Shown piece by piece: positions 834 through 9,712 of a stretch of DNA of 30,057 nucleotides. Both the position numbers and the translations under genes were made by a program. The DNA lies in the IMG/VR virus record IMGVR_UViG_3300042540_001146, positions 1 through 30,057 of that record, one strand, 5' to 3'. The DNA is from a virus. The notes beneath the pieces are model-generated. The model saw nothing but the letters and a program-made list of their open reading frames with translations, was not told the DNA's origin and made no database searches. Each line of letters opens with the position of its first letter. Within the stretch, counting starts at the first letter, position 1.

Positions 834-1604
834 ATGCCTAGTATCCGCAGAATATCTGATTTTAAACCACTATTTACGAATCTGGCTCAGAGTTCTCACT
901 TTCAGGTCATCTTTGGTGGTCTACCAACTCCACTTTTATCACATCTTGCAATAAGAGGAGTTGACCCATTATTTGTTGCTAATGATGCGGGACTACTTTG
1001 TTTTTCGGCATCACTACCGGGAACTCAACTAGCAACTGCCGATATTAGCAATAATTATACTGGAGTAAACGAAAGAATTGCTCATCGCAGAATCTTTACA
1101 GAAATTGGTCTGGAGTTTTATGTTGATAGTAATTATACCAATTTAAAATTCATAGAGCACTGGATGGAGTTTATTGCCAGTGGTTCTAATGAGAATCCAT
1201 CCAGAGACGGATATTATTTTAGAATGAGATATCCAAAAGATTATAAGAGTGATATGACTAAGATTATTAAGTTTGATAGAGATTATAATGCAGAAATTGA
1301 GTATAATTTTTTCGGACTATTTCCACTTTCTTTAAATTCAGTACCAGTTCAGTATAATGGTTCTGATATATTAAAAATGAGTGCCACATTTAATTACGAA
1401 AGATATGTTTGTGGCAGAACATTAAGTTTAGATTTTATAAGAAATAATGATAATAATAAAGTCTTAGGTAATGTAATTAACAGTACAACTAATCAAACAA
1501 ATAGACAAAATAGACTTGCCACAGGAAGAGATGAATTGATTAATAGAAATCTCAATCTAGGAACTGGTAGATTGGATGACCCAAGACCAGTTGGAGTTGC
1601 CTAA
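834..1604 (+). CDS. Baseplate tail-tube initiator-like protein (gp48/gp54 type)
   Basis: This 256-aa protein has the layout of a tail-tube fold. An N-terminal helix (RISDFKPLFTNLAQ) leads into FQVIFGGLPTPLL. Next comes a loop with FSASLPGTQLATADISN and the run GVNERIAHRRIFTEIGLEFY. A helix with FIEHWMEFIASG follows, then a beta segment IEYNFFGLFPLSLNSVPVQY and LKMSATFNYERYV. In T4, gp48 and gp54 both contain a tube-like domain and cap the baseplate so the gp19 tube can polymerise. The position just before gp26 and the hub genes fits this role. The C-terminal 60 residues are Asn/Arg-rich and probably flexible. I cannot tell gp48 from gp54 by eye, so I give no symbol. Confidence 0.68.
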   Translation: MPSIRRISDFKPLFTNLAQSSHFQVIFGGLPTPLLSHLAIRGVDPLFVANDAGLLCFSASLPGTQLATADISNNYTGVNERIAHRRIFTEIGLEFYVDSNYTNLKFIEHWMEFIASGSNENPSRDGYYFRMRYPKDYKSDMTKIIKFDRDYNAEIEYNFFGLFPLSLNSVPVQYNGSDILKMSATFNYERYVCGRTLSLDFIRNNDNNKVLGNVINSTTNQTNRQNRLATGRDELINRNLNLGTGRLDDPRPVGVA

Positions 1605-1642: not shown

Positions 1643-2362
1643 ATGCCTTTACCAAAGATTGCAACTCCAATTTATGAATTGGAAATTCCTTCATTAAAAA
1701 AGAAAATTAGATATAGACCCTTTCTAGTTAAAGAAGAAAAAATTCTGATTATTGCTCTAGAAAGCGAAGACCCTAAACAGATTGCAAATGCAGTTAAGAA
1801 TGTCATTTCAAATTGCATTTTAAGCAAAGGTATTAAAGTAGAAGACCTATCCACATTTGATATTGAGTATTTGTTTCTTAATATTAGAGGTAAGTCTGTG
1901 GGTGAGAGTGTTGATGTTTTAATCACTTGCCCTGATGATGAAACGACTCAGGTTCCGATGAGTATTAATTTAGATGAGATTACTGTTGAGGTTGATCCAA
2001 AACATTCTTGTGATATTAAGTTAGATGATACTCTAACTCTAAGAATGAGATATCCATCTATGACTGAGTTTATCAAGAATAATTTTGATTCTGGTGATGG
2101 TGTAAGTGTTGATGATACTTTTGATTTGATTATATCTTGTATTGATCAAATTTATTCGGAAGAAGAATCTTGGACAGCAAGTGATTCTACTAAAAAAGAA
2201 TTATTAGAATTCGTAGAGCAGTTAAGTTCCAAACAATTCAAAGAAGTTGAAAAATTTTTTGAGACTATGCCTAAACTTTCTCATACAATTAAAGTTAAAA
2301 ATCCAAAGACCGGTGTGGAAAGTGAAGTTGTATTGGAGGGTCTTTCAGCTTTTTTCGTGTAG
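1643..2362 (+). CDS. 26: Baseplate hub assembly protein gp26 (zero-frame product)
   Basis: This 239-aa protein matches the T4 gp26 baseplate family. It has an N-terminal PIYELEIPSLKKKIRYRPFL strand pair and the hallmark RPFLVKEEKILIIALES. A helical region follows (IANAVKNVISNCIL), then FDIEYLFLNIRGKSVGE, a small beta domain, and LRMRYPSMTEF. In T4, gp26 is needed for assembly of the central hub. The family is related in position and length to the G-type tail-assembly chaperones that precede tape-measure genes. The last codons (LSAFFV-stop) sit on a perfect slippery heptamer, so a minor longer product is expected (see the entry for 2335-2538). In T4 the next gene is 51; here that place is taken by the frameshift extension. 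Confidence 0.87.
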   Translation: MPLPKIATPIYELEIPSLKKKIRYRPFLVKEEKILIIALESEDPKQIANAVKNVISNCILSKGIKVEDLSTFDIEYLFLNIRGKSVGESVDVLITCPDDETTQVPMSINLDEITVEVDPKHSCDIKLDDTLTLRMRYPSMTEFIKNNFDSGDGVSVDDTFDLIISCIDQIYSEEESWTASDSTKKELLEFVEQLSSKQFKEVEKFFETMPKLSHTIKVKNPKTGVESEVVLEGLSAFFV

Positions 2363-2392
2363 GTATGGCGCATACTGATCTTGCGTCATACT
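2335..2392 (+). promoter_or_regulatory. Programmed -1 ribosomal frameshift signal
   Basis: Three classic elements line up. (1) A Shine-Dalgarno-like GGAGGG lies at 2335-2340 inside the coding region, nine bases upstream of the slippery site. (2) The slippery heptamer T TTT TTC at 2350-2356 is in the correct zero frame (codons TTT, TTC) and is followed by GTG TAG. (3) A hairpin starts six bases downstream: 2363-2372 pairs with 2382-2391 through ten base pairs, one of them G-U, with a nine-base loop; a further G-U is possible at 2362/2392. SD-like plus heptamer plus hairpin is the dnaX type of arrangement. Slipping back one base moves ribosomes from the gp26 frame into the open -1 frame that ends at 2538. 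Confidence 0.82.
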
Positions 2393-2538
2393 ATAAGACA
2401 AACTTTGCTCTGATGCAGCATCATAAATACTCTTTGACTGAACTAGAAGATATGATTCCTTGGGAAAGGGAAATTTATATAACTCTCCTACAAAATTATA
2501 TTGAAGAAGAAAATTTAAAGAACCAAGCAAATGGCTGA
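2350..2538 (+). CDS. -1-frame extension of gp26 (tail-assembly chaperone GT-like)
   Basis: The -1 frame is open from the slippery site at 2350-2356 to TGA 2536-2538. It would add 60 residues to gp26, giving a fusion of about 298 aa spanning 1643-2538. The extension reads RVGMAHTDLASYYKTNFALM and continues with HHKYSLTELEDMIPWEREIY, a helical His/Trp/Glu-rich segment of the sort found in the T part of G-T tail chaperones, which binds the tape measure. An internal ATG at 2365 could give a free 57-aa protein, but it has no good ribosome-binding site. The stop overlaps the next gene start (2531) by eight bases. Fusion is preferred over independent initiation because of the complete frameshift signal. 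Confidence 0.78.
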   Translation, partial: FFRVGMAHTDLASYYKTNFALMQHHKYSLTELEDMIPWEREIYITLLQNYIEEENLKNQANG

Positions 2539-4264
2539 TTTAGCACAAATAGCTCAAAGTGGGGTAGATCCTATATCTGGGTCCTATTTGTCTGCGGAAA
2601 GAAGAAAGGCACTATTTCAAAGAAGTAGAGTCTCATCAAATATTTTTGGTGGAGGTGGGGCACTTGTTCCGGTTAGTAGAAAATCAGACCCAGAGACCTT
2701 AGCAATTGTAAAGTCTCAATCATCATCAATAACTTCAGTGCAACAACAGGTTAATACCTTAAGTTCTGAGGTTGCTAATTTAAATAAGGTAATATTTGTT
2801 CAGACCCAAACCGTAAATGGAGTTCAAGAACTAGTAGGAAGTTTAAGAGGTGAAGTTACTGTTTTTAATGCCTCCTTAAATAACGTTGCAAAGGCAATCA
2901 ACACCGATAGTATTCTAGAACAGAATCGTGTAAAGCAAGAAAACGAAGAGCAAAGAAGAGCAACAGAATTAGGATTAAGAGCAGGTAGAGAAAGTCTTCT
3001 AGAAAAAGCAATACAAAATGCACTAATTGCTCCGGTTCAGGCAATTGCACAAAAAACACAATCTATTTTAAGTAGATTGGCACAATTTTTTGGAACATTA
3101 TTGCTTGGATGGTTAACGAATCAAGGAATTGAAACTCTTAGAGCACTGTCCGAAGATAATGGTAAAAAATTAGAAGAAATTAGAGATAATGTTCTAAAGG
3201 CTCTTGGAATTGGTGCCGCAACATTATTCTTATTAAATGGTGGATTTCTTGCTATTGCCGGAACCATTACTAGATTATCTCTTAAAATTGGTGGATGGTT
3301 GCTTAAGAATACAGTCGGTAGATTTTTTGGAGCACTTGGAAATCTTTTAAAAGGCGCTGGAGCAGCCTTGTTTGGTCTTGGAAAACAAAAACCACCGGCA
3401 ACTACAATAGTTCCTCCAACAACAACACCTCCTGGTGCTAAACCTCCTACTGTGCCACCAACTACACCAAAAGGAGGCGGACCTCCTGCTCCAAAAGGTG
3501 GAGGTCTTAATTGGTTAAAAGGAAGTGGTGTACTTAATGCTATTTTTGGAACATTAGAATTTGGAATTAGAAAATCTCAGGGACAAACAAATCTACAAGC
3601 AGGTGCCGGCGCCGGGGGTAGTGTAGCGGGGTCACTGTCCGGAGCAGCTCTTGGAGCAAAAATTGGTCTTTTGGGTGGACCAGTTTCTTGGATTACTTCA
3701 CCTTTGGGAGGTTTGATTGGTGGTGGTATAGGTTGGTATCTTGGTGGAAAAGGTGCGGATGTTCTTACTGGTGCAGATAAACCTAAAACACCAACACCAA
3801 CACCAACATCAAAGGCACAAAGTCCAGTAATACCATCATCTACAAAATCTACACAAACTCCTGCTCCTGCTGCCACCACTGCCGCTAGTGATAAAACATT
3901 TGAGCAGCAAATGAGTGATTTAAAGACTCAGGCTGATTCAATTGATTTCACTCAGGCACCACAATATGGAGAACTCAATATAACACCAGAGGAGAGTAAT
4001 CAGGTTTCATCTCAATCAAATCAGGTAAATATAAGACCACTTCCAGCACAAACTGATAGGATTTCTACTCAAGTTAATGTTGGTCCTGCACCAGCACCAG
4101 CACCAAATGTAATTTATAGAAGAGTTGGGTCTTCGGCACAACAACAATCCTCAGGTGCCGCTCCTACTGGTGGTCCGGTAAATCAAGTTCCATCAATATC
4201 AGCATCAAATCCAGATAATTTCTATGTGCTCTACTCACAAGTAAATTATAATGTGGTGACATAA
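2531..4264 (+). CDS. Candidate tape-measure/hub protein with coiled coil and membrane segments
   Basis: This 577-aa protein has no sure family assignment. From the N-terminus: a short Ala/Ser region, a helical coiled-coil stretch at about 55-150 (SITSVQQQVNTLSSEVANLN), and a helical, charged segment. A hydrophobic motif FFGTLLLGWL lies near residue 190 and a second hydrophobic stretch at about 225-260. A Pro/Thr/Gly-rich linker at about 285-325 leads to a Gly/Ala-rich hydrophobic region at about 355-410. The tail is Pro/Thr/Gln-rich and looks disordered. Its length is close to T4 gp29 (590 aa), the tape measure. It directly follows the frameshifted chaperone gene, the usual place for a tape measure. 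No hydrolase motif is visible. It shares the FxxTLL(L/V)GWL motif with the next gene product, so the two may be paralogous. Confidence 0.6.
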   Translation: MADLAQIAQSGVDPISGSYLSAERRKALFQRSRVSSNIFGGGGALVPVSRKSDPETLAIVKSQSSSITSVQQQVNTLSSEVANLNKVIFVQTQTVNGVQELVGSLRGEVTVFNASLNNVAKAINTDSILEQNRVKQENEEQRRATELGLRAGRESLLEKAIQNALIAPVQAIAQKTQSILSRLAQFFGTLLLGWLTNQGIETLRALSEDNGKKLEEIRDNVLKALGIGAATLFLLNGGFLAIAGTITRLSLKIGGWLLKNTVGRFFGALGNLLKGAGAALFGLGKQKPPATTIVPPTTTPPGAKPPTVPPTTPKGGGPPAPKGGGLNWLKGSGVLNAIFGTLEFGIRKSQGQTNLQAGAGAGGSVAGSLSGAALGAKIGLLGGPVSWITSPLGGLIGGGIGWYLGGKGADVLTGADKPKTPTPTPTSKAQSPVIPSSTKSTQTPAPAATTAASDKTFEQQMSDLKTQADSIDFTQAPQYGELNITPEESNQVSSQSNQVNIRPLPAQTDRISTQVNVGPAPAPAPNVIYRRVGSSAQQQSSGAAPTGGPVNQVPSISASNPDNFYVLYSQVNYNVVT

Positions 4265-4265
4265 G

Positions 4266-6245
4266 ATGGCAGTAGCAGTAAAACCATCCAAAAGTTTACT
4301 TAATATTCGTTCTGGAATTAAGTCCATAAAAGATTCATTCTCTGGACTGAGAAAGAATAGTGAAAACCTCAACGAGGTTATGTTGAAAAAAACAAAAGTA
4401 AAAAGAGAATCAATAGCAAGAAATTATATACTTTCTCAAAGAAGACAAGAACAGGAAAGAAGAAAAAATAAAGAAGACCTTTTAGAGGCATCAAGTATTG
4501 GTGGTGCAATTAAGAGGCAGGGAAGAGCAATTGCCTCAAGTACCAAAGGATTTCTGGGAAGAATTATGGACTTCCTGTCAACACTATTAGTTGGTTGGTT
4601 GCTTACTAATTTGCCATCAATTATCACGATGGCACAGGAATTAATTGCTAGAATACAGAGACTTTATACTATTATAACTGGATTTTTTAATAATACCGTG
4701 AATTTGTTTAAAGGATTTGGAAAACTTCTAAGTGCCGTTGGTAAAAATATTCTAACCTTTGATTTTACCGATAGTAAAGGAAGAGTTGAAAGTGCCTTGA
4801 AAGATTTGGGTGGTACTTTTGATGATATGCAAAGTCAGTTTGATGAAGGATTTAAGTTACTCACAACATCTCTTGGAGAAGGAGTTGTAAGTGGAGAAAA
4901 CGCAAAACCTTTTGGAACTCAATATGAAAATGAAAGTATGCAAGAGCAACCTTCTAGTAGTTCTAGCGGTAGAGCAGTTTCTGGTGATGCTGTAGATAAA
5001 AAAGTTTTGGATTTTATTGCAGATGGAGAAGCAAGTCAGAGCGACCCTTATGGGGGATTTAATACGTCAAGAGGAAAAACTCAAGGGAGGGCAACAGACA
5101 AAACAATTGGTTGGTTGGCACAAAATGCTCAAGGTGCTATCGGCCGATATCAACATATGCCAGCGTATATTTTAGACAGGGCGATAGCAGCTGGTTACAA
5201 TGCAAATACAAAGTTTACTCCAGAAGTTCAAGATAAAATTACTTTACACTTTTTAAAAACTTCACATTCATATGATGCCTGGAAATCTGGCAAACTAAGT
5301 GATGAAGATTTTCTTGGTAAATTAGCACCAACTTGGAGAGCTATTCCTCAAGGTCCAAAAAATGCTGCAATATTGGGTGGAAGTCCAAATTCTACCTATA
5401 ACGATAGATATGCTGGTGGAAATGCATCAAAAGGAACTTGGGAACAGAGATTAACAAAACTTAAATCTGTGAAAACCGGTGCCACTCAACAAGCACAGCA
5501 AGTACCATCAACACCAAGACCAGCACAAACAGCACCAGCAGTTTCAACATCAGTTATAGACCAATTTAAAGGTAAACCCGGAGGAGCAGCAGGAATAATT
5601 ACATCAGAAAGAGGAATGAGATTAAGTCCTACAACTGGCAAATACCGAATGCATCACGGAATTGATATTGCTCCAGCAGGACCAGGATATTATGTTGCAT
5701 TAAAACTATCAGGTACGGTTTCTGATGTTTCTTTAGGATATAGTGGTGGATATGGTAACTATGTTGATATTAAATCGGGAAACACAATATATCGTTTTGC
5801 ACACTTAGCAAAGGTACTGGTGAAAAGGGGTCAATCTTATAATGGACAAACAATTGGTGAAATTGGAAATACTGGTTCTGGTACTGGGATACATCTTCAT
5901 TTTGAGGTAAGACCTGGAGGTGGTGATTCTATTAATCCAAGACCATATCTTGGTCTTCTTTCAATCGGAAAACAATTAACCGGGGCTCCAGGACAACCAG
6001 CACAAATATCAACTCCAACACCTGCACAAATAGCATCATCAGGAACTCAACAGAGACGACAAGCATCTCAGCAATTAGCACAACAACCAGCAGGACCTAG
6101 TATTCTTATAATAGAAGAAGAACCTCCTGCACCACAACCACAAGTCTCTGCTGGTGGTGGAGGGGCGATGATGATTCCTATTGTAATTAATCCGTTAAAT
6201 AGTTTTATCACAAAGAAACTTCTACTAGATTTAGCATACACATAA
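4266..6245 (+). CDS. Tail-associated cell-wall hydrolase: GH104-like lysozyme plus M23 peptidase
   Basis: This 659-aa protein begins one base after the previous stop. Residues 1-100 are highly basic and helical. A hydrophobic motif FLSTLLVGWLLTN lies at about 102-116. Residues about 245-400 resemble the lambda-R-type lysozyme/lytic transglycosylase fold (GH104). They contain DFIADGEAS with likely catalytic Glu255, then GAIGRYQHMP, FTPEVQDKITLHFL and WRAIPQ. Residues about 445-565 form an M23 zinc endopeptidase domain with H463-x3-D467 (in MHHGIDIAP), H513 and H543-x-H545 (HLHFE). The last 100 residues are Pro/Gln-rich, with a hydrophobic end. It probably cuts peptidoglycan glycan and peptide bonds during DNA entry, riding on the hub or as a second tape-measure-like protein. 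T4 carries its lysozyme in gp5 instead. Confidence 0.83.
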   Translation: MAVAVKPSKSLLNIRSGIKSIKDSFSGLRKNSENLNEVMLKKTKVKRESIARNYILSQRRQEQERRKNKEDLLEASSIGGAIKRQGRAIASSTKGFLGRIMDFLSTLLVGWLLTNLPSIITMAQELIARIQRLYTIITGFFNNTVNLFKGFGKLLSAVGKNILTFDFTDSKGRVESALKDLGGTFDDMQSQFDEGFKLLTTSLGEGVVSGENAKPFGTQYENESMQEQPSSSSSGRAVSGDAVDKKVLDFIADGEASQSDPYGGFNTSRGKTQGRATDKTIGWLAQNAQGAIGRYQHMPAYILDRAIAAGYNANTKFTPEVQDKITLHFLKTSHSYDAWKSGKLSDEDFLGKLAPTWRAIPQGPKNAAILGGSPNSTYNDRYAGGNASKGTWEQRLTKLKSVKTGATQQAQQVPSTPRPAQTAPAVSTSVIDQFKGKPGGAAGIITSERGMRLSPTTGKYRMHHGIDIAPAGPGYYVALKLSGTVSDVSLGYSGGYGNYVDIKSGNTIYRFAHLAKVLVKRGQSYNGQTIGEIGNTGSGTGIHLHFEVRPGGGDSINPRPYLGLLSIGKQLTGAPGQPAQISTPTPAQIASSGTQQRRQASQQLAQQPAGPSILIIEEEPPAPQPQVSAGGGGAMMIPIVINPLNSFITKKLLLDLAYT

Positions 6246-7603
6246 TGTCAATTAAAAAGTCAATCTACGAAGAACTTATACTAGAATCCAACGACCAAAA
6301 GAGAACGGTTGATATTAGAACTGGTACAGTTTCTATTGATTACTATGAAGATATTTTCTCACCAACAATCACTGTAAAGATTCAGGTAGGAAATACCGGT
6401 GATTCTATTCAGGCACAGGATAATGAAGGAAATGCAACGGGAAAATTTCAGTCAATTTATAATGGTCTTCCTTTAAGAGGTGGTGAGAGAGTTTCTTTGA
6501 AAATTGCCGGTAATTCTGCCACAAATCCCGGACTAGATTTTGCAACCGACGAGAAAGACTATCTTTATGTTTCTAGTATTACGAATGTTATTTCAGAATC
6601 ACAACGAGAATTCTTTGAACTTAATCTAGTTTCAAGAGAAGCAATCACAAATGAAACCATAAGAGTTCCTAAGAAATTTCCAACTAGTCAATCAATCAGC
6701 GATTCTGTGGAAAGTATCATTAAGGAATATCTAAAGACAGACAAGATTGATAAAATTGATAAGACTCAAAATAAGTACGGTTTTATTGGTAATCTTAGAA
6801 AACCATTTACGGTATTAGTATGGTTGGCATCTAAAGGAGTTCCGGAAACTTCAAAGAAAGATGCAACGGCAGGATATGTATTTTTCCAAACACAGGATGG
6901 ATTTAATTTTAGGTCAATTGATAATTTAATTTCACAAACTCCAAGAAAAACTTTTAATGATAAAGAATTTGTGTATGATTATACTGATGTAAACCAGACT
7001 GGATATGAGAGAGATAATGATTTTAAGATTTTACAATACACCACAAACAGAAATCAAAATCTAATTGAGAAACTTAGATTGGGTAGTTATTCTAGTTATA
7101 GAGTAGTTTATGATCCTCTTAATTTTACATTTAATGCATCAACATTTAAACTTGAAGATTATGCCGGTGAATCTGCAAACCTAGGAAAGATTTTAGAATT
7201 GCCTAAGATTACAAATAGCTCTAATGAGAAACTTGGAGATTTGCCGACAAGAATTATAACTCAGGTTTTAGATGTTGGAACTGTAGAAAAAGATGTTTCT
7301 AAGCAAGAAAATGCAGATCCTGGAAAATATCAGTCTCAGGCAATAATGAGATATAATGTTTTGTTTACTCAAACTTTGAGTATGACCGTACCTTCAAATA
7401 CCAATCTAAGAGCAGGAGATATTATTACTTGCAATTTTCCTAAAATTTCCAGAGAAGACGGAGCAACATATGATGATGAACAAAGTGGTCTATATATGAT
7501 AAAAGCATTATGCCACCACTTTGATACGGAAGGTTCTTATACTTCTATGACTTTAATTAGAGATACATTTGGGCGTTACGGAACAAATACTAGACAAAAA
7601 TAA
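6245..7603 (+). CDS. 27: Baseplate central hub protein, gp27-like
   Basis: This 452-aa protein starts on the last base of the previous stop (TAATG). It opens with a beta-rich domain, VDIRTGTVSIDYYEDIFSPT. A middle region follows with FFELNLVSREAITNETIRVP. Next comes a helix-loop segment with SISDSVESIIKEYLK, then the hub hallmark GYVFFQTQDGFNFRSIDNLI near residues 215-235. The second tube-like half ends with MTVPSNTNLRAGDIITCNFP and LYMIKALCHHFDTEGSYTSM. In T4, gp27 forms the trimeric hub ring that joins gp5 to the tail tube. It lies directly before the gp5-like gene with zero spacing, as expected for binding partners made together. T4 gp27 is 391 aa, so this version is somewhat longer. Confidence 0.82.
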   Translation: MSIKKSIYEELILESNDQKRTVDIRTGTVSIDYYEDIFSPTITVKIQVGNTGDSIQAQDNEGNATGKFQSIYNGLPLRGGERVSLKIAGNSATNPGLDFATDEKDYLYVSSITNVISESQREFFELNLVSREAITNETIRVPKKFPTSQSISDSVESIIKEYLKTDKIDKIDKTQNKYGFIGNLRKPFTVLVWLASKGVPETSKKDATAGYVFFQTQDGFNFRSIDNLISQTPRKTFNDKEFVYDYTDVNQTGYERDNDFKILQYTTNRNQNLIEKLRLGSYSSYRVVYDPLNFTFNASTFKLEDYAGESANLGKILELPKITNSSNEKLGDLPTRIITQVLDVGTVEKDVSKQENADPGKYQSQAIMRYNVLFTQTLSMTVPSNTNLRAGDIITCNFPKISREDGATYDDEQSGLYMIKALCHHFDTEGSYTSMTLIRDTFGRYGTNTRQK

Positions 7604-9712
7604 ATGGAACAGTCTTTACTTAAAACTAATTTTATTGGAAGAGATGGGTTTCTTTGGTGGATTGGTCAAGTAGCTCCAGAAGGTGCTCAAAAAGACCAAC
7701 TTGATAAGGGAGGATGGGGAAATAGACGTAAAGTTAGAATTATGGGATATCATCCCACAAATGAAGCTGATTTATCAAATGATGATCTTCCTTGGGCACA
7801 AGTCCTATTATCCACAAGTGATGGCAGTGGCGCAGGAAACTATGGAACTAGTATAAAAGTTGCACCAGGAGATTCGGTCTTTGGATTCTTTATGGATGGT
7901 GATAATGCTCAACTTCCCGTTATTATAGGAGTATTTGGTAAAACCAAGGAAGGAGCATCAAACGAAGAATTTAGATTACCATTTCAACCATTTACCGGAT
8001 ATACCAGTAAAATAACAAATGATGGATCTAAATTAAAACAAAATCAAACAAACGAGCAGACAACATCAGCACAAGAGTCTCCGGTTCATTTACCTCCACA
8101 AGTTGCAAATAGTAATGATAAAATTGCATATTCTGGTGTAATTGGTGATACACTTCAACTTGGGACCACAATACCAGGTTCCAAGATGGAAAAAATTGCC
8201 ACAGAACTTGAAAATGCGATTAAGTATTTGCAAGACCTAAAATCATTTCCAAATCTGGCACAAGAATGGATTAACGCTAAAGTAGAAGAATTGTGTGACC
8301 AAATATCTCAAAAAATACAAGGGATTACCACAGAAATAGTTTCCGGAGTTGTGAATAGTACTTACGAAGAATTGCAACCTGTATTACAACAAGGTGCCGA
8401 ACAAGTATATGATACGGTAAACTCCACAACAAAGGCGGCAACTCAAAGTAAATCCACGGCACATTTAGCAGGGGTAGAATCCCAGAAGGCAACAATTGAA
8501 CCTGTAAAACAATTACAAAAATTAATTCCTTGTTTAATTTCAAGTATTATAGAAAGTCTTGGAAGTCTTATAAGTGATATGGTTTGTGCTATATTAAAAA
8601 ATGTGACAAACTTTGTATCCTGTGTTATTGACCAATTTCTTGGAGGATTATTGAATGGAATTATTGATTTAATTATAGCAGGTATGTCCGGAGTTCTTGG
8701 AGCTGTTTCTTTACTCTTAAGTTTTAGTAATTTTAATCTTAAAGATAGTATAAGACAAAATGCAGAAGGTCTTCTTGGCATTCCACTATCATTCAACTGC
8801 GGAGAAGAAGAAACCGATCCGGGCGTTGAGAAATGGACGATTGGTTCTGGACCAACACAATCTCCACCATTTGATGTAAATGCTATCTTAGAACTTGCGA
8901 ATAATGCTAATGCTATTGCTTCTGACCCAGAATCTGGATTATCTGGTATTGAAAGTATTATAGGACCTCTTGATTTCTTAAATCCAGAAATTAGTGACCC
9001 TGACTTTATTGGTAGTGGATTGAGTAATTGTTTTGGTGGAACACCAACCGTATGTAATCCTCCATCAATTAATATTTTTGGTGGGGGTGGTTCTGGAGCA
9101 TCGGCACTTCCAGTCTTTGGGTCAATTGGCGAAGGTACTGGAAGCATTATTGGTGCAATTCTTACATCAGGAGGTTCTGGTTATACCTATCCACCATTTG
9201 TATCAATCACTGATAATTGTGGAAAAGGATACGGTGCCGTGGCTCAATCGGTCATCGAGAACGGACAGGTTACGGCAATTGTGATTAATTCCGATGGTGA
9301 AGGATATACTCTAGGGAATCAACCACAAGTTGGCGATATCATTAGTACTGGCACTGGTGCTGATACTGGTACTGGAGGTACTGGTGTTGATACTGGCACT
9401 GGAGGTACTGGTGCCGATATCACACTTACGGACCAACAGAACATCACAATTTCTGAAGTTTTAATTCTAAATCCTGGATATAATTATCAAGATGGAGATA
9501 TTGTAACTGATAACTTTGGAAATCAATATGATGTTGTAATTGATGGTGGTTCAATCTCTAGCATTACGCCGATAAATATTACGGACATTACAGATTTACC
9601 AGTTTTGAAAGTCATAACACAAACTGGTTCTGGAGCAAGATTAAAACCTGTATTTGGATTTAGAAGTTCATTCCAAGGTGAAGTGAAGCAAGTTATTGAC
9701 TGTGTGGTATAA
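7604..9712 (+). CDS. 5: Baseplate hub gp5-like OB-fold protein without lysozyme domain
   Basis: This 702-aa protein starts immediately after the gp27 stop. Residues 1-125 match the gp5/VgrG OB-fold: FLWWIGQVAPE, VRIMGYHP, DLPWAQVLLSTSDGSGAGNY and GDSVFGFFMDGDNAQLPVII. The T4 lysozyme insertion is absent. Residues about 180-400 are helical with hydrophobic stretches and several Cys. From about 510 a beta module appears, ILTSGGSGYTYPPFVSITDN. A 9-residue Gly/Thr/Asp repeat follows at 9353-9418 (27-base units), and a second similar module (ILNPGYNYQDGDIVTDNFGN) ends the protein. The T4-type C-terminal spike helix is missing here but is encoded by the next gene. The gp5 identity rests on the N-terminal domain and gene order. 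Confidence 0.8.
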   Translation: MEQSLLKTNFIGRDGFLWWIGQVAPEGAQKDQLDKGGWGNRRKVRIMGYHPTNEADLSNDDLPWAQVLLSTSDGSGAGNYGTSIKVAPGDSVFGFFMDGDNAQLPVIIGVFGKTKEGASNEEFRLPFQPFTGYTSKITNDGSKLKQNQTNEQTTSAQESPVHLPPQVANSNDKIAYSGVIGDTLQLGTTIPGSKMEKIATELENAIKYLQDLKSFPNLAQEWINAKVEELCDQISQKIQGITTEIVSGVVNSTYEELQPVLQQGAEQVYDTVNSTTKAATQSKSTAHLAGVESQKATIEPVKQLQKLIPCLISSIIESLGSLISDMVCAILKNVTNFVSCVIDQFLGGLLNGIIDLIIAGMSGVLGAVSLLLSFSNFNLKDSIRQNAEGLLGIPLSFNCGEEETDPGVEKWTIGSGPTQSPPFDVNAILELANNANAIASDPESGLSGIESIIGPLDFLNPEISDPDFIGSGLSNCFGGTPTVCNPPSINIFGGGGSGASALPVFGSIGEGTGSIIGAILTSGGSGYTYPPFVSITDNCGKGYGAVAQSVIENGQVTAIVINSDGEGYTLGNQPQVGDIISTGTGADTGTGGTGVDTGTGGTGADITLTDQQNITISEVLILNPGYNYQDGDIVTDNFGNQYDVVIDGGSISSITPINITDITDLPVLKVITQTGSGARLKPVFGFRSSFQGEVKQVIDCVV
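9353..9418 (+). repeat. 27-base Gly/Thr/Asp tandem repeat in gp5-like gene
   Basis: Copies start at 9353, 9380 and 9407 (the third is partial), exactly 27 bases apart. They encode the unit TGADTGTGG, TGVDTGTGG and then TGAD. It probably forms a flexible linker between two beta modules. Small in-frame repeats of this kind can change length by recombination. Confidence 0.85.

Follow-up and report, generated by a model that had tools for sequence, protein, structure and literature searches.

The end of gene 26 in a marine T4-like phage, where the 0-frame stop codon lies within a -1 open frame that annotators enter as a separate small gene 51, raises the question of whether this locus encodes two independent proteins or two forms of a single protein. 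We analysed the locus in a 30,057-nt (30-kb) virus record, IMG/VR IMGVR_UViG_3300042540_001146 (the whole stretch is called the window below), which holds a T4-like tail module as judged from Pfam and PHROG matches (Table 1), and compared it with related loci. We consider it highly probable that gene 26 and the overlapping -1 frame form one tail assembly chaperone gene with two products, generated by programmed frameshifting. The device is family-wide and already described for T4-like phages, and the window is a member of this known kind. The 2022 abstract of Vladimirov and colleagues reportedly describes frameshifting as a conserved feature of several T4-like groups, with genes 26 and 51 being separate in T4. 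As reported by two papers that cite the study (PMC10885494, PMC12846349), gp26 and gp51 were recognized as the T4-like tail assembly chaperones (Vladimirov, Gautam & Davidson 2022, Virology 566:9-15), and separate short and long chaperone genes in some T4-like phages had already been reported; the second paper also credits Vladimirov et al. with the finding that TAC-N genes in T4-like phages carry poly-T frameshift signals. Because the identification in T4 is already published, the new value lies in a quantitative conservation test and in the stimulatory elements, and we offer as refinements the strength of that test, a codon bias in a Shine-Dalgarno (SD)-like site, covariation in a lineage-specific stem, a natural fusion and an explanation of the "truncated" gp51.

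Table 1. Coordinates of the features discussed, numbered from the first base of the window
Feature	Position	Strand	Basis or remark
Tail tube protein gene	834-1604		Pfam/PHROG matches
Gene 26 homologue, short form (TAC-N), 239 aa	1643-2362	+	Pfam T4_baseplate PF12322; PHROG 150 "baseplate hub"
SD-like GGAGGG, probable internal stimulator	2335-2340	+	9 bases upstream of heptamer
Slippery heptamer T TTT TTC, in frame	2350-2356	+	Conservation in loci and on tree
Stem-loop, arms 2363-2372 and 2382-2391	2363-2391	+	Starts 6 bases after heptamer
-1 extension, gp51-like C-terminal domain (TAC-C), 60 codons and stop	2356-2538	+	PHROG 634, PHROG 150; open in relatives
57-aa ATG open reading frame, "gp51" of annotators	2365-2538	+	Sequence; ATG sits within hairpin stem
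577-aa protein, probable tape-measure protein (client)	2531-4264	+	Position; weak PHROG tape-measure matches
659-aa protein with M23 peptidase domain	4266-6245		Pfam/PHROG matches
Tail protein	6245-7603		Pfam/PHROG matches
gp5-like hub protein	7604-9712		Pfam/PHROG matches

The 0 frame of gene 26 closes with GCT TTT TTC GTG TAG, which places the heptamer in the X XXY YYZ register. In the putative mechanism most ribosomes would terminate at the TAG codon (2360-2362) and release the short form, whereas some would pause on T TTT TTC while the upstream GGAGGG pairs with the anti-SD sequence of the ribosome, a pause that the downstream stem-loop would also aid in the window's clade. After slipping back by one base, so that TTT TTC is re-paired as TTT TTT, these ribosomes would read the 60 additional codons (...LSAFF-RVGMAHTDLASYYK..., 2356-2535, stop TGA 2536-2538) and produce a long form of 298 aa, ending in a helical domain that would correspond to the C-terminal end of T4 gp51. 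If the parallel with lambda G/GT holds, the short and long chaperones would together coat the tape-measure protein encoded just downstream, deliver it and then leave. The slip itself, its efficiency, the chaperone role and the client we infer; the site, its conservation, the coding extension and the gp26/gp51 homology come directly from the sequences compared. The GGAGGG, the heptamer, the 10-bp hairpin, the 60-codon -1 frame and its 8-base overlap with the next gene (start 2531), all named in an earlier sequence-only reading of the window, proved exact to the base.

Since this heptamer is common in AT-rich DNA (14 matches on both strands of the window against 16.2 expected), the motif alone was not taken as evidence and the case rests on its conservation. 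A second in-frame T TTT TTC at 1307-1313, inside the tail tube gene, is followed by just 16 open -1 codons and makes a useful natural negative control. Among 258 loci with a complete gene 26 end, drawn from IMG/VR and named phages, gene 26 ends with the heptamer in 252: TTTTTTC or TTTTTTT lies no more than eight codons from the stop in 246, and six more keep the heptamer with a stop several codons later (four of these were inspected; two have identical 3' sequence). Of the six remaining loci, one is an in-frame fusion (L038) and one has a gp26 broken by an early stop (L178); the others are T4, Vibrio D510 and the two Ackermannviridae Vibrio YC and Salmonella PLL1. Across a tree of 199 sequences, the first slippery Phe codon is TTT without exception and shows no changes, and the third base of the preceding codon is T throughout, again with no changes, while for that codon as a whole at least 37 changes are needed, at least 23 of them to its amino acid. 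The second slippery Phe codon changed five times, as against 17-44 changes in each of nine other conserved Phe codons. An invariant T and Phe codon amid changing neighbours imply that conservation of the heptamer exceeds chance, and on the strength of the 258-locus comparison a programmed -1 frameshift at the end of gene 26 is very probable in the window's phage. The earlier reading had asserted such a frameshift and proposed looking for a conserved slippery site in cyanophages; the comparison strongly supports the frameshift. Three of the exceptional loci, Vibrio D510, Vibrio YC and Salmonella PLL1 (L087, L088 and L090), retain a -1 extension where gp26 ends although they have no canonical heptamer, and the Salmonella PLL1 extension lacks a nearby start codon too. 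The early stop in L178, a close relative of HTVC008M, falls at codon 163 and is perhaps a sequencing error. A search of viral contigs with gp26 of Vibrio D490 found no relatives.

Codon choice upstream of the heptamer is also biased. The Glu codon within the SD-like site is GAG in 138/182, compared with 28% GAG elsewhere in gene 26, and GAG is the minority codon (about 14-35%) in other conserved Glu columns. The GGAGGG thus appears to be under selection at a usable spacing, as in a dnaX-type cassette.

The downstream hairpin, in which all ten positions pair with a single G-U, has a predicted RNA fold of -16 kcal/mol, whereas shuffled sequences average -7.18 (z -3.82; none of 200 shuffles as good). 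In 71 related sequences 91.1% of the cells of the stem are paired, and double changes number 36 against 15.6 after shuffling, with a sharp fall when the partners are slid. Nearly all of these double changes occur at one pair (U-A/G-C/A-U), at which an Ala codon GCT, GCG or GCA is matched by a Glu, Ala or Val codon in the opposite arm. Relative to a null model that preserves codon usage and the -1 amino acids, folding is significantly better in 98% of 52 clade representatives (mean z -4.88), whereas 63 other representatives display little structure over the same short stretch (mean z about -1.0). The hairpin is absent in the close relatives L001-L004 and in the Syn33 group, and we therefore rejected it as a universal signal. 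By these comparative criteria the stem is real and under selection in the window's clade, but lineage-specific; its place in the signal, as first proposed, holds for this clade and not in general. A stem of different sequence occupies the same position in L184, which suggests replacement of the hairpin between lineages. In the hairpin-less lineages the early Leu codon of the extension is CTC in 77/118, against a background of 6%, and Ala is often GCC; in L001-L004 and Syn33-type loci this bias falls about 7-16 bases past the heptamer. Such codon usage suggests another constraint at the RNA level, possibly pairing with the upstream GAGGG. The structure signal of these lineages rises with longer downstream windows, possibly through a composition effect.

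If the extension is reached by frameshifting it should need no start codon of its own, and the relatives bear on this directly. No ATG, GTG or TTG occurs among its first six codons in 112/202 distinct loci, and in the start-less loci conservation of the extension protein already begins ahead of any later ATG. An ATG at the matching place is found in the window and 77 of about 196 alignable loci, and one near the extension start was gained or lost about 11 times on the tree. The gp26 proteins of L001-L004 are 95-97% identical to that of the window, and there CCCTCTCCCA replaces the window's GTATGGCGCA, so that both ATG and hairpin are gone, yet heptamer and protein are kept. Diverse loci keep the -1 frame open, and conservation of its protein extends to phages that infect several host groups. 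Like the extension of a frameshifted tail chaperone, the -1 extension therefore appears independent of its own start codon.

The same data allow the alternatives to be weighed. Frameshifting might yield the long form while, in the window's clade, the ATG within the stem additionally yields a free C-terminal arm. The position of this ATG inside the stem of the hairpin clade and its changing presence on the tree would suit such a combination, but a ribosome-binding site at the proper distance is absent and the close relatives L001-L004 do without the ATG; we regard the combination as unlikely. An elaboration, in which the clade's stem-loop both promotes the slip and gates the arm's ATG to give three products, and other lineages pair a different stimulatory RNA with the same heptamer, is speculative and decidedly unlikely. 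Dispensing with the frameshift, the 57-aa frame could instead be a separate gene translated from ATG 2365, either coupled to the stop at 2360-2362 or independently, so that the two proteins are separate subunits. Annotators do use this ATG where it is present, as for P-SSM2 gp51; D490, Moby and S-CRM01 have an overlapping TAATG, and the ATG of the window's clade, 2 bases past TAG, might allow coupled reinitiation to make a free 57-aa arm. However, ATG 2365 has no well-placed ribosome-binding site, the SD-like site ending 24 bases ahead of it and hence too far away to serve it, and a separate gene would leave the invariant heptamer and T, the fused L038 and the full-length T4 gp51 unaccounted for. 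We rejected this reading as a general explanation because start codons are missing in over half of the loci, in which the protein is nonetheless conserved, and we consider it highly improbable. That the extension is open by chance, or is a remnant left by decay, as the abundance of the heptamer in AT-rich DNA might suggest, is refuted by its conservation, its PHROG 634 match and the open -1 frame of diverse loci, and its probability is negligible. Returning to the two-product frameshift, the L038 fusion, the match of T4 gp26 and gp51 to the two forms and the compensatory changes in the stem support it; the missing hairpin in many relatives, the heptamer-less Vibrio D510 and two Ackermannviridae and the lack of a chaperone match in the PDB count against it.

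Profile searches place both parts of the predicted protein in the gp26/gp51 family. The short form matches Pfam T4_baseplate (E 1e-74) and PHROG 150 (E 8.5e-83, columns 5-232 of 282), in agreement with its first designation as gp26-like, and the 57-aa part of the extension matches PHROG 634 (E 3.1e-27) and columns 239-278 of PHROG 150 (E 8.3e-6). Both T4 proteins match Pfam T4_baseplate; T4 gp26 covers PHROG 150 columns 14-235, and T4 gp51 (249 aa) covers columns 13-280 of 282 and also matches PHROG 634 (1.2e-23). Together with the location of genes 26 and 51 on opposite strands, these spans indicate that in T4 the short and the long form each have a gene of their own, the two having diverged, and that T4 gp51 is, by its profile match, the complete long form rather than merely a C-terminal arm. 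The sequence-only reading, which had T4 simply split the locus between genes 26 and 51, was mistaken on this point, and its equation of the extension with gp51 holds for the gp51 C-terminus only. The T4 proteins, long called "hub catalysts", fit two isoforms of one chaperone, separately encoded.

A natural in-frame fusion of gp26 and extension (297 aa, ...TSFWLGMAHVDL...) occurs at L038:4001-4894, on a 236-kb IMG/VR contig, where the slippery run reads TTTTTGG; either this phage makes solely the long form or the sequence contains an error. Structure prediction used sequence rows from the window and viral contigs only, and L038, folded as encoded, gave a confident model (pLDDT 91.7) in which the extension forms three helices. 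The model matches only other viral hub/chaperone models and no solved tail chaperone, with no PDB match at E <= 0.001; neither the family profile nor T4 gp51, used as sequence queries against the PDB, returned anything useful. Tail chaperones are very diverse, so the missing fold match lowers the case for homology to the lambda/HK97 chaperones and not that for a shared way of working.

Sampled annotated records split, shorten or omit the long form, as had been anticipated from the window alone: P-SSM2 gp51 is the same 57-aa frame as the window's 2365-2538, the gp51 of Syn33, Sf-CH5 and HTVC008M starts about 50 bases further in, and ZPAH1 has no gp51. Cyanophage gp51 has been described as missing its first ~200 residues and reaching only ~20% of the length seen in other gp51 proteins, with no explanation in the passages concerned (Sullivan et al. 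2010, PMC3037559). Frameshifting would explain it, in that the missing ~200 residues would come from gene 26.

A tail assembly chaperone role for the gene 26 locus is well supported, and it is plausible that the 577-aa protein is the tape-measure client. The earlier proposal of this client suits its position and is weakly shown by PHROG tape-measure matches (best E 8.3e-5); in HTVC008M the gene at the corresponding place is annotated as "putative tail tape measure". As a rule of thumb, tape-measure proteins span 0.15 nm per residue. The gene next to gp51 encodes 933 aa in S-N03 (140 nm predicted, 138 measured), 936 aa in S-H34 (140 predicted, 129 measured), 864 aa in S-CRM01 (130 predicted, 140-170 measured, a rough fit) and 1565 aa in S-CREM2 (235 predicted, 418 measured, no fit). 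Since the 577-aa protein resembles the 659-aa protein in one segment (35% over 74 aa, E 3e-6), either or both could be clients, and the two may be paired tape-measure-like paralogues. S-CRM01 has a single gene where the window has this pair. In S-CREM2 (L265:5984-15055; reported tail 418 nm) both genes after gp51 are enlarged, encoding 1565 and 1456 aa against 936 and 735 aa in S-H34 (129 nm); both S-CREM2 proteins are annotated as endolysins though present in the virion, and neither alone fits 0.15 nm per residue. The S-CREM2 virion proteome lists the neighbouring ORF203, 204 and 208-213 and not ORF206/207, the gp26/gp51 homologues, which is absence of detection only (PMC10665884).

Four known systems resemble the locus. 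The T4-like chaperones (gp26 as TAC-N, gp51 as TAC-NC) share with the window the protein family and the short and long forms, but T4 uses two genes on opposite strands and the window's phage one frameshifting gene. The window's heptamer, T TTT TTC, differs from the G GGA AAG of lambda G/GT, and solved tail chaperones have no detectable fold match to the window family. The predicted arrangement is that of lambda, in which a short form and a minor form with a -1 extension are encoded just ahead of the tape-measure gene, here a presumed one (Xu, Hendrix & Duda 2004). As in bacterial cassettes of the dnaX type, SD, heptamer and hairpin all lie at usable spacings; in the window, however, the cassette would serve two phage chaperone isoforms, and across its family the hairpin is dispensable. 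The tail chaperones of Vandenendeviridae and Andersonviridae likewise end TAC-N in a conserved poly-T -1 site, GTTTTT, with the -1 frame annotated as hypothetical, although these are other phage families and their motif is shorter (PMC12846349).
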